NCBI GenBank assembly: GCA_949297145.1
Contig: CASFQO010000007.1
Span: forward strand, 1-56,598
Length of the DNA stretch: 56,598 bases
Direction: 5' to 3'
Origin: an uncultured Alphaproteobacteria bacterium
GTDB taxonomy: Bacteria; Pseudomonadota; Alphaproteobacteria; RF32; CAG-239
In this document: in pieces, positions 23,272 through 26,320 of the stretch
Layout of the letters: each line of letters begins with the position of its first letter
Position numbering within the stretch: the stretch's first letter is position 1
Program-made: the position numbers and the translations under genes
Notes under the pieces: generated by a model
Database searches by the model: none
Seen by the model: only the letters and a program-made list of their open reading frames with translations
What the model was told of the DNA's origin: nothing

Positions 23272-23973
23272 TTATTTTCGCACATCAAAGATAGCAAAAT
23301 TTTCTTTAAAATGCTGCAAAAGCGCCTCATTTTCAACCAATGCCAGGCATTGGCTTTCCGTCGTATCCGTATCAGAAGGAACTTTCCGATATTTTTGCAG
23401 ATAATATTCCTTAACGCCCATATTTTTCAAAGAGTCGGCTATCTCATAAAGATCCTGAACTGTTAAAAACCGTGGGTCACATGTCGTCCGGCATTCAAAG
23501 GAAATACCGGAAGCAATAAGTTCATTTAAGCTTTCTAAAACCTTATCAACATCACCCCAACCACCGGTAACAGTCTTATATTTTTCTTTATCAAATGGCG
23601 CTTTAATATCAAACCCAACCCAATCGACATGCTTTAGCACTTCTCTAAATCTATCAGGACGATATCCCCCCGTATGCATACCAATTTGATATCCTAACGC
23701 TTTGACCTCATCAATCGCCTCAATCAAACCATCTTGCACCAACGGCTCACCACCGGAAAAAACAACCGCATCAAGGATTCCCTTTCTCTGTTTGAGAAAG
23801 TCAACAAACTTCTGCCAAACAATATTTGTTTCCGCATGTACATCTTGAAGATGCGTATTGTGGCAAAAAGGACAACGCCACGGACACCCCTGCATAAAGA
23901 CAACAGCAGCCATCCTATTAGGAAAATCGACGATACTGAATTTCTCAATACCGCCGATTTGAATAGGGTTCAT
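23272..23973 (-). CDS. nrdG: anaerobic ribonucleotide reductase activating protein (radical SAM)
   Basis: 233 residues from ATG 23973. Radical-SAM cluster motif CPWRCPFCHN (Cys32, Cys36, Cys39 counted from a GTG two codons earlier), with SGGEPL for SAM binding. It uses a 4Fe-4S cluster and S-adenosylmethionine to put a glycyl radical on NrdD. Here the target glycine is on the separate 77-residue protein encoded 25 bases upstream, so NrdG would have to act on that protein, alone or bound to NrdD. The longer form (about 230 residues versus 155 in E. coli) is common in nrdD-linked genes of anaerobes. Confidence 0.93.
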   Translation of the reverse strand: MNPIQIGGIEKFSIVDFPNRMAAVVFMQGCPWRCPFCHNTHLQDVHAETNIVWQKFVDFLKQRKGILDAVVFSGGEPLVQDGLIEAIDEVKALGYQIGMHTGGYRPDRFREVLKHVDWVGFDIKAPFDKEKYKTVTGGWGDVDKVLESLNELIASGISFECRTTCDPRFLTVQDLYEIADSLKNMGVKEYYLQKYRKVPSDTDTTESQCLALVENEALLQHFKENFAIFDVRK

Positions 23974-23997
23974 AAACACCCACCACTAAATAAAGGA

Positions 23998-24231
23998 TTA
24001 TTCAGCAGCCAAAGCCATTGTATTCTCAGCTCTGCAAACACATTCACGAGCTTCACAACCTTTAACAGCCTTTTCTTCGCAGAAACATAATCTGCTTTTA
24101 TATTCACCCTTCTTCCCAACGTTAAATTCTGTAGTTGGACGAATATACCCCATTACTCTGGTATAAACTTCACAACGTTGTCTTTCAGAATCATCCAATT
24201 TAACATCATCGATATTAATAATATTGCTCAT
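23998..24231 (-). CDS. separate glycyl-radical protein of NrdD
   Basis: 77 residues, ATG 24231 with AGGGAGA upstream. RCEVYTRVMGYIRPTTEFNV followed by GKKGEY is the C-terminal glycyl-radical loop of NrdD (radical Gly in RVMGYIRP), normally fused to the catalytic chain. Here the catalytic gene ends 28 bases earlier in another frame. This chain also carries a Cys-rich tail (CFCEE ... CEARECVC) that could hold metal. It resembles in principle the spare-part glycyl-radical protein YfiD (GrcA) of pyruvate formate-lyase. Role as a radical subunit is strongly inferred. Confidence 0.88.
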   Translation of the reverse strand: MSNIINIDDVKLDDSERQRCEVYTRVMGYIRPTTEFNVGKKGEYKSRLCFCEEKAVKGCEARECVCRAENTMALAAE

Positions 24232-24259
24232 GTCTCTCCCTTTCATATATTATACTATT

Positions 24260-26320
24260 CTACGCTACTTCTTGCTTTTTTGCAAGCATTTTCAACTTTT
24301 CTGCCTTTTTTTCTTGGTCGCAAATCGGGCAGAATTCATGTTCACCGGCAATATATCCATGTTTTGGACAAACCGAGAATGTCGGTGTAATCGTGATATA
24401 AGGCAAACGGTAATTAGCCAAAACCTTTTTAATAAAGTCACGACAAACCTTTGCCGAAGAGATACGTTGGTTCATATAAAGGTGAAGTACTGTACCCCCG
24501 GTATACTTAGATTGCAATCTTGCTTGCAAATCTAACGCCTCAAATGGGTCATCAGTATAACCTACCGGCAATTGAGAAGAGTTTGTGTAGAACGGTGCAT
24601 CAGGAGTCCCCGCCTGAATAATACCCATATAACGTTTTTTATCTTCTCTTGCAAATCTTGTTGTAGCACCTTCAGCCGGAGTCGCCTCAAGGTTATACAT
24701 ATGACCGGTCTCTTCTTGGAATTTTACTAATCTATCGCGGATAAAGTCTAAGAACTTTTCAGCAAAAGCCTGTCCCCAACTATCTGCAATATTGTGTTCA
24801 TCATTAGTAAAGTTTCTAATCATTTCATTCATACCATTAACACCAATGGTAGAGAAGTGATTACGAAGAGTCCCCAAATATCTCTTAGTAAATGGGAACA
24901 ACCCATTATCAATTAAACGTTGAATAACTTTTCTCTTAATTTCCAAAGAAGTTCTGGAAATATTCATCAATTCATCAACTCTTGCAAACAAGCCTGCTTC
25001 ATTTCCTTTGTATACATAGCCGAGTCTAGCGCAGTTAATGGTAACAACACCGACAGAACCAGTCTGTTCAGCAGAGCCAAACAATCCGTTTCCACGAGCC
25101 AACAATTCTCTCAAATCCAGTTGCAAACGGCAACACATAGAACGAATCTGTCCAGGCTTTAAAGATGAATTCAAGAAGTTTTGGAAATAAGGCAATCCAT
25201 ATTTTGCAGTCATCTCAAACAACAACTCGGTATTTTCATCTTCCCAAGGGAAATCCCATGTCATATTATAAGTTGGGATTGGGAAAGTGAAAGGACGACC
25301 TTTAACATCACCACCCATCATAACCGTGATGTAGGCTTTGTTAATCATAGCCATTTCATCTTTCAGATCGCCATAAGTATAATCCTGTTCAACACCGGCA
25401 ATAATCGGATGCTGGTCGCGCAAATCTTCCGGACAAACCCAGTCAAACGTAAAGTTTGTAAACGGAGTCTGTGAGCCCCAACGAGAAGGAACATTCAAGT
25501 TATAAATTAACTCTTGCATGCATTGCTCAACTTGTTCATAAGATAACTTATCGTTTCTGACATAAGGAGCCAAATAAGTATCAACTGATGAAAAAGCTTG
25601 AGCACCGGCCCATTCGTTTTGCAAAGTTCCCATAAAGTTGACCATCTGCCCAACTGCAGAAGAAAGATGCTTCGGGGCGCCAGCTTCTACTTTACCAGGT
25701 ACGCCGTTAAAACCTTCGCGCAATAAATTTTTCAAAGACCAACCAGCGCAATAAGCAGCCAACATACTCAAATCGTGAATATGAATATCACCGTTTCTAT
25801 GAGCTTCTCCAACTTCCGCCGGATAAACATGTGACAACCAATAATTTGCCGTAACTTTACCGGATACATTCAAAATCAAACCACCGTTAGAATACCCTTG
25901 GTTTGCATTTTCTTTAATTCTCCAGTCCAGATTCTCCAAATATTCGTTAATAGAACTTTCTACATCAATAACGGTCTTACCGTCCCCGCGCATTCTATTT
26001 CTTTTATCACGATATAAGATATAAGATTTTGCTGTCTTAAAGTAATTTGAAGAAATCAAAACTTGCTCAACAACATCTTGGATATCTTCAACAGATGGTA
26101 AAGACTCATCAAACTTATGAGACAAAATTTTCATTACCTGAGCTGTCAAAAGCCAAGCGTCATTGCTGTCAAACTCATTTGTAATTTCACCGGCTCTTAA
26201 AATTGCATTATAGATTTTATCACCGTCAAAATCAGCCAAAGTGCCATCTCTTTTTGTTATACTTTTAAACGGCATTTTATATTTTTTCGCCGTGGGCATT
26301 TGCAACTCGTTATTTGCCAT
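24260..26320 (-). CDS. nrdD: anaerobic ribonucleoside-triphosphate reductase, catalytic chain without the radical loop
   Basis: 686 residues from ATG 26320, where AAGGGA supports the start; the frame runs 43 codons further up without signal. ATP-cone at about 15-100 (ITKRDGTLADFDGDKIYNAI), then the NrdD barrel (QTPFTNFTFDW, SAEQTGSVGVVTINCARLGY). It ends just after the zinc site CPKHGY ... CPICDQE. The glycyl-radical loop that should follow is missing and is encoded by the next gene. It reduces ribonucleotides to deoxyribonucleotides without oxygen. Two NrdR-like boxes upstream suggest repression by NrdR. Confidence 0.95.
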   Translation of the reverse strand: MANNELQMPTAKKYKMPFKSITKRDGTLADFDGDKIYNAILRAGEITNEFDSNDAWLLTAQVMKILSHKFDESLPSVEDIQDVVEQVLISSNYFKTAKSYILYRDKRNRMRGDGKTVIDVESSINEYLENLDWRIKENANQGYSNGGLILNVSGKVTANYWLSHVYPAEVGEAHRNGDIHIHDLSMLAAYCAGWSLKNLLREGFNGVPGKVEAGAPKHLSSAVGQMVNFMGTLQNEWAGAQAFSSVDTYLAPYVRNDKLSYEQVEQCMQELIYNLNVPSRWGSQTPFTNFTFDWVCPEDLRDQHPIIAGVEQDYTYGDLKDEMAMINKAYITVMMGGDVKGRPFTFPIPTYNMTWDFPWEDENTELLFEMTAKYGLPYFQNFLNSSLKPGQIRSMCCRLQLDLRELLARGNGLFGSAEQTGSVGVVTINCARLGYVYKGNEAGLFARVDELMNISRTSLEIKRKVIQRLIDNGLFPFTKRYLGTLRNHFSTIGVNGMNEMIRNFTNDEHNIADSWGQAFAEKFLDFIRDRLVKFQEETGHMYNLEATPAEGATTRFAREDKKRYMGIIQAGTPDAPFYTNSSQLPVGYTDDPFEALDLQARLQSKYTGGTVLHLYMNQRISSAKVCRDFIKKVLANYRLPYITITPTFSVCPKHGYIAGEHEFCPICDQEKKAEKLKMLAKKQEVA

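Follow-up and report, generated by a model that had tools for sequence, protein, structure and literature searches.

A probable two-chain class III ribonucleotide reductase with its radical loop on a separate 77-residue protein

The class III (anaerobic) ribonucleotide reductase (RNR) encoded in the window, the whole stretch of 56,598 nucleotides analysed here from a gut-type bacterium, is probably a functional two-chain enzyme, consisting of a 686-residue core and a free 77-residue protein that carries the radical loop. We put the probability of this reading at roughly 85%. The genes are arranged on the minus strand, on which all the features below are located, in the order nrdD core, small gene and nrdG2. 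The core gene (24260..26320), defined by its open reading frame, encodes an ATP-cone, a catalytic barrel and a zinc sub-site, and lacks the radical loop. In the Pfam search, its product matched positions 1–534 of the 562 positions of PF13597 (NRDD) with 591.7 bits, and the ATP-cone (PF03477) was found N-terminal to this match. The score against NF006126 of NCBIfam was 1112 bits. A finger-loop motif, MCCR (25127..25138), was read from the sequence and contains the presumed thiyl Cys; it belongs to the double-Cys, Met-containing type in the motif classes of PMC9669993, as given in its section 9. The last motif ahead of the stop is a zinc-type motif, CPKHGYIAGEHEFCPIC (24320..24370), which was identified from the sequence and by alignment with fused homologues. 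It has the form CPKH..CPIC, and metal binding by it is predicted. From this alignment, the window core stops 19 residues past the zinc-type Cys pair, and the loop begins as a new protein. The radical Gly loop, which is usually found at the C-terminus of the same NrdD chain, is therefore absent from the core and located in the separate gene.

The small gene (23998..24231) encodes 77 aa, or 82 aa if counted from an upstream ATG, and was assigned by its open reading frame, its PF13597 match and its maintenance as a gene of its own in relatives. It is preceded by the Shine-Dalgarno sequence GAAAGGGAG (24236..24244). The product matched PF13597 at positions 531–561 (E-value 4.5e-7, over the cut-off), and alignments located the radical loop RVMGYIRP at 24136..24159, with Gly28 (codon 24148–24150) as the presumed radical residue. 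This Gly is invariant in an alignment of 15 sequences. The core and the small gene are in different frames, and the codon of the radical Arg begins 100 nt past the core stop. A dedicated NrdG activase of the radical SAM type, encoded by nrdG2 (23272..23979; TIGR02495, 201 bits, above the cut-off; PF04055), adjoins the small gene. The earlier note had described a catalytic chain that ends just after its zinc site, and an RVMGYIRP loop encoded by its own gene between nrdD and nrdG, in another frame and with its own ribosome site. The open reading frames and the end of the NRDD match at 534/562 bear out this description. The same note placed the radical on a separate 77-aa protein, and the separate gene is real, but the protein is not a whole glycyl radical domain: because the zinc sub-site is on the large chain, the small chain consists of the radical loop and a C-terminal tail only. 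The added Cys-rich tail that the note described is present in the window's genus, but the alignment showed that it is not conserved beyond the genus. A conserved -AAE tail (24001–24009 in the window) forms the C-terminus of the family's small proteins and of those from several viral contigs. In the window's genome (87% complete, 16 contigs), exactly two PF13597 pieces were found, the core and the small gene, so that the second intact nrdD considered in the earlier note was not present in this assembly.

The small gene is under purifying selection. Its dN/dS among 18 loci of the genus had a median of 0.071 and a maximum of 0.197, calculated from 132 of the 153 pairs after those with dS of 0.1 or less, or with saturation, were left out. 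GAAAGGG was found upstream of its ATG in all 18 loci, and GAAAGGGAG in 17 of them; the stop codon of the core and the spacing vary among these loci, whereas the ribosome site and the ATG of the small gene are kept. In an 87% complete genome of 16 contigs, a frameshift from sequencing or assembly might be suspected, or an nrdD in decay, and the genus does contain a decayed solo loop (L061). However, the same split was observed on complete plasmids and in assemblies made independently for members of the genus, family, class and phylum. Together with the differing stops and spacing, the low dN/dS and the conserved ribosome site, this leaves such an explanation with practically no chance of being correct.

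Synthesis of a single polypeptide by a programmed frameshift or stop read-through was also considered, as core and loop share a frame, interrupted by a single stop, in 6 of the 18 genus loci. A gene expressed in this way is expected to have a constant frame relation at the junction, which was absent from the 103 split loci scored; the loop frame relative to the core stop was distributed over the three classes as 46, 32 and 25. For this count and the Cys count described below, 26 of 129 split rows were left out as shorter duplicates or N-containing. The scattered frames argue against recoding that joins core and loop, as do the variable intergenic stretch and stop codon next to a kept ribosome site and ATG, and the small gene is away from the core in some genomes and alone on many contigs. 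Recoding is thus very improbable. Frameshift, decay and read-through were all rejected on the dN/dS values, the kept ribosome site and the scattered frames. Three apparent exceptions were also discarded. Some genus members seemed to be fused by a shared open frame, but a stop lies between core and loop in each of them; an apparent loop-NrdG fusion in G023 spans a run of N; and the Massilia locus L147, where a single open frame spans the core tail and the loop, was not counted, because this frame has only 234 aa and the core there must be interrupted or differently framed.

In the first sample of the window's family, NrdD was split in 22 of the 22 genomes having nrdD, and such uniformity is not due to chance. 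An NRDD match was obtained in 147 of the 153 family genomes, and among the matches listed for these 147 no core reaches the radical loop. The earlier note had proposed a survey of relatives, in which fused NrdD would point to an error here. The split was found throughout the family genomes examined, and also in the class and phylum. With the selection on the small gene, this gives good support to the two-chain class III reductase that the note envisaged. An even draw of the class gave NRDD matches in 35 of 289 genomes, 25 split and 10 fused, scored on checked loci with the exception of G091, for which the match listing and the closely related G211 were used. An even draw of the phylum gave matches in 58 of 398 genomes, 15 split, 41 fused and 2 weak partial matches, scored from match positions and in part checked on loci; four matching genomes are common to both draws. 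Proportions of split and fused forms are given only from these even PF13597 draws, because the loci L071–L150 (at least 80) and L218–L297 were found by similarity to the loop, and such sampling favours split forms. The sample of relatives consists largely of metagenome bins, some of which are incomplete, and it is from genomes of this kind that the lack of other RNRs, described below, was read.

The split is located on plasmids in Cupriavidus necator H16 (pHG1), Sulfuricystis multivorans, Shinella zoogloeoides and Bradyrhizobium japonicum, and was also found in Paracoccus denitrificans, Sutterella wadsworthensis, Rhodopseudomonas faecalis and Rugamonas rubra. The genomes of the Sutterella wadsworthensis and Parasutterella secunda loci (G758, G762) have a second, fused NrdD besides the split one.

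Several genomes appear to depend on the split enzyme. The large-subunit domain of class I/II RNRs (PF02867) had no match in 8 of 15 genus genomes, and 7 of these 8 have the split NrdD. Three of them (G005, G009 and G010) are 99–100% complete, and the split enzyme must therefore work there, while the window's own genome has one class I/II match. The plasmid pHG1 of C. necator H16 contains exactly one core and one small gene, in the set core, 66-aa 'nrdD' and nrdG. According to the accessible part of PMC2864759, which cites Siedow 1999, NrdDG of C. necator is essential for complete denitrification, and NrdDG of C. metallidurans is given there as Rmet_5137 and Rmet_5139, with one number between. 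In G599 and G296 the small gene is apart from the core and adjoins a radical SAM gene of the nrdG type; in G126 it is on another contig, where its two neighbours tested were not nrdG.

Some relatives have a Gly_radical protein (13 of 153 genomes in the family and 4 of 24 in a smaller set), which makes it conceivable that the small protein works for a different glycyl radical enzyme and that the core is a pseudo-enzyme. However, no Gly_radical match was found in the window's genome, the small gene matches the loop of NrdD and not Gly_radical, the core retains its motifs, and some genomes have no other RNR match. We therefore consider this reading highly implausible. Two-chain function, as judged from the sequences, is strongly supported.

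The phylogenetic analysis favours one old fission followed by several re-fusions. The tree of 82 cores groups the split forms with six fused ones in a single clade (95/94 support); a clade of six fused cores and an outgroup, also fused, lie beside it. This topology requires a minimum of five changes between the split and fused states, and the tree of 116 rows six. The trees were built from 116 of 141 selected cores and then from 82, after near-duplicate, partial, N-containing and long-branch rows were dropped; the positions of long branches are uncertain, according to a warning from the tree program. A Cys within 4 residues before the aromatic residue of the loop, mostly in the form ERQxCE, is present in all 103 split loci scored. 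It is kept in the fused L122, L136, L152 and L217 (scored) and L313 (by inspection), with L216 outside the scoring, and is absent from the fused sister clade. Fused homologues of that clade have the radical loop within a few residues downstream of the zinc-type Cys pair. The six fused members inside the split clade are best read as re-fusions, and their occurrence in several lineages indicates that separation is not always favoured. Split cores from bins titled Actinobacteria, Elusimicrobia and Acidobacteria (L126, L129 and L134) were placed among proteobacterial cores on the tree, by either gene transfer or mis-binning. The alphaproteobacterial NrdD at positions 3–1679 of L136 ends in two near-identical tandem radical loops, possibly an assembly artefact.

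Small radical genes were also found without a core. Extra copies are located on other contigs in G020, G021, G025 (three copies), G096, G113, G308 and others, and in genus g3 at least three NRDD matches were present in 21 of 26 genomes among the matches listed, some of which are broken cores. The solo copy of G020 adjoins a ClpA-like gene, that of G021 a phage integrase and a reverse transcriptase (a prophage), and one of the three in G025 a relaxase; solo copies in related loci adjoin a gyrase/topoisomerase IV gene (L082) and an ftsZ gene (L085). A decayed solo radical gene with stops lies at about 320–710 of L061 (contig C195 of G016), in the window's genus. In a scan of viral contigs (80 loci, L218–L297), 76 had the loop without a core on the whole contig and 4 had a core, although the viral records lack a stated completeness of at least 90% and the rest of the virus could hold one. 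Phage-type genes, including integrase, endolysin, DNA polymerase, primase, baseplate, head-tail adaptor and tape measure genes, were neighbours at six of seven viral loci, and the other locus had only unknown phage families. At L227 and L058, a viral or prophage solo gene lies beside an integrase with a reverse transcriptase upstream, which we would guess to be of the diversity-generating kind; L227 also has an endolysin match. Plasmids of Allochromatium vinosum (102 kb) and A. tepidum (176 kb) carry the loop without a core; the Allochromatium solo genes (L181, 4486–4695; L215, 2460–2645) have no annotated nrdG nearby. No clear solo gene was found in the isolated-phage collection, where the match in phage ANMV-1 was rejected, being annotated as an anaerobic ribonucleoside triphosphate reductase, and another match, H31, is in an unannotated record. 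A search of PHROGs with the small protein gave one weak match, to phrog_4132, an unknown family. Viruses might use the solo gene for repair, to supply additional radical carriers while DNA is being made, or to redirect the host enzyme. The occurrence of this tiny radical protein alone in viruses, plasmids and other bacteria suggests an exchangeable part.

Other glycyl radical enzymes in the same family are split as well. A distant class III lineage, 23–25% identical to the window core and with an MGCR finger loop, is split in four genomes. In G181 (L151) and G644 (L209), core and loop are in frame with one TAG between them, and in G839 (L363) and G840 (L362) they overlap in another frame. Among the 13 family genomes with a Gly_radical match, pyruvate formate-lyase (PFL) is split in seven (G003, G772, G775, G880, G774, G195 and G773; loci L341, L345, L346 and L348–L351), four have a fused PFL, as scored from the match listing and, for two of them, read on the loci, and two have a different fused PFL-like enzyme. 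The split PFL core has a Cys-rich end, ..LDCGCCEGTCK, and is followed by a gene of about 80 aa. The one small protein of these that was scanned was identified as GrcA3 by NCBIfam (161.8 bits; cut-off 158). At one locus, L341, a gene of the radical SAM type, judged by its motif only, follows the split PFL pair.

In the two-chain NrdD, the core would provide the ATP-cone, barrel, finger-loop cysteines and zinc sub-site, and the 77-aa protein the radical loop. NrdG2 would abstract a hydrogen from Gly28 of the free small protein, and the loaded loop would dock via the mouth of the barrel beside the finger-loop Cys, in the manner of the C-terminal loop of fused NrdD, and start the reduction of ribonucleoside triphosphates. 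With no covalent bond between loop and core, cleavage by oxygen at the glycine would ruin only the small protein, and a fresh one, from the same operon, an unlinked gene, or a prophage or plasmid copy, could re-arm the core. We infer this replacement after oxygen damage from the chemistry in the available part of PMC8683613 and from the solo copies. It is also possible, but rather unlikely, that a neutral fission produced a permanent two-subunit enzyme whose chains assemble once, the small one having no role in exchange or repair. Much of the data is explained equally well in that way. The split genes are adjacent in nearly all loci scored, the window's genome has one small gene only, and several re-fusions are seen on the tree. 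However, the core-less copies on 76 of 80 viral contigs and on two whole plasmids, the extra copies elsewhere in relatives, and the division of other glycyl radical enzymes in this bacterial family at an equivalent position all speak against a permanent heterodimer. Returning to the exchangeable small protein, we tentatively propose, at a little less than even odds, that the class III radical loop became a tradable, consumable subunit by one old fission. Cells would keep unlinked extras, and phages and plasmids would carry the loop alone to arm or re-arm the host reductase when replicating their own DNA. With an equivalent division made separately in the second class III lineage and in the PFL of the family, detachment of the part most fragile to oxygen would then be a repeated strategy among glycyl radical enzymes.

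Class III RNR is described, in the portions of the literature available to us, as one catalytic chain plus NrdG, whereas a large clade that includes model denitrifiers builds this enzyme from two genes, the shorter of which is annotated as 'nrdD', as 'hypothetical protein' or not at all. If nrdD and nrdG alone were expressed from such organisms, the radical residue would be missing. A separable radical carrier would also allow activation, docking and oxygen damage to be measured apart. The authors of the YfiD repair study raised the possibility, in PMC8683613, of spare parts for further enzymes of the glycyl radical type, and the small NrdD radical genes are direct candidates for these. No description of a split NrdD or a split PFL was found in the literature searched, of which subscription papers are mostly outside the coverage.

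The closest known system is the fused class III RNR (NrdD/NrdG) of the PRK08270/NF006126 type, with solved structures from P. copri (8p23) and T. maritima (4coi). The window's enzyme shares with it the ATP-cone, barrel, finger-loop Cys, zinc-type motif, radical loop sequence and NrdG partner, but differs in that loop and tail are a separate protein and that the split forms have the extra pre-loop Cys. In the glycyl radical domain of P. copri, as described in the available part of PMC11226230, the zinc site is followed by the buried loop and then the tail, and the cut in the window thus falls inside this domain. The earlier note had likened the locus to PFL and YfiD. The likeness holds for the way of working: YfiD/GrcA (TIGR04365) and Y06I of phage T4 are likewise small free proteins with a radical glycine, and viral carriage is also shared, Y06I being a viral-borne spare part according to PMC8683613. 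Membership of that family was not borne out. The small protein matches the NrdD loop family PF13597, its only Pfam match at E up to 1, and PF01228 was not found in this search; the four NCBIfam matches are NrdD models, none of them GrcA, and the small chain was above the cut-off of no model. In addition, YfiD supplements an enzyme that retains its own radical domain, whereas the window core ends at NRDD position 534 without a loop, and the small protein would thus be primarily an indispensable subunit and only secondarily a spare part. GrcA3 (NF038360), a free radical domain of about 80 aa beside a truncated PFL in the same bacterial family, has a similar arrangement, but it belongs to the PFL family and the window's small chain to NrdD. 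An RNR in two chains is also known from the split class II enzyme NrdJa/NrdJb of Pseudomonas and others (PMC9669993 and PMC4860495, in the parts available); this is another class with a B12 radical, and its split detaches no radical-bearing loop. Phage RNR genes, nrdD among them, are found in pieces as here, split by introns, inteins and endonucleases (PMC3653736). This literature match for a split nrdD was rejected as a precedent, because the cases in the accessible part of that paper are interruptions within the gene for one enzyme, and not a stand-alone radical part.
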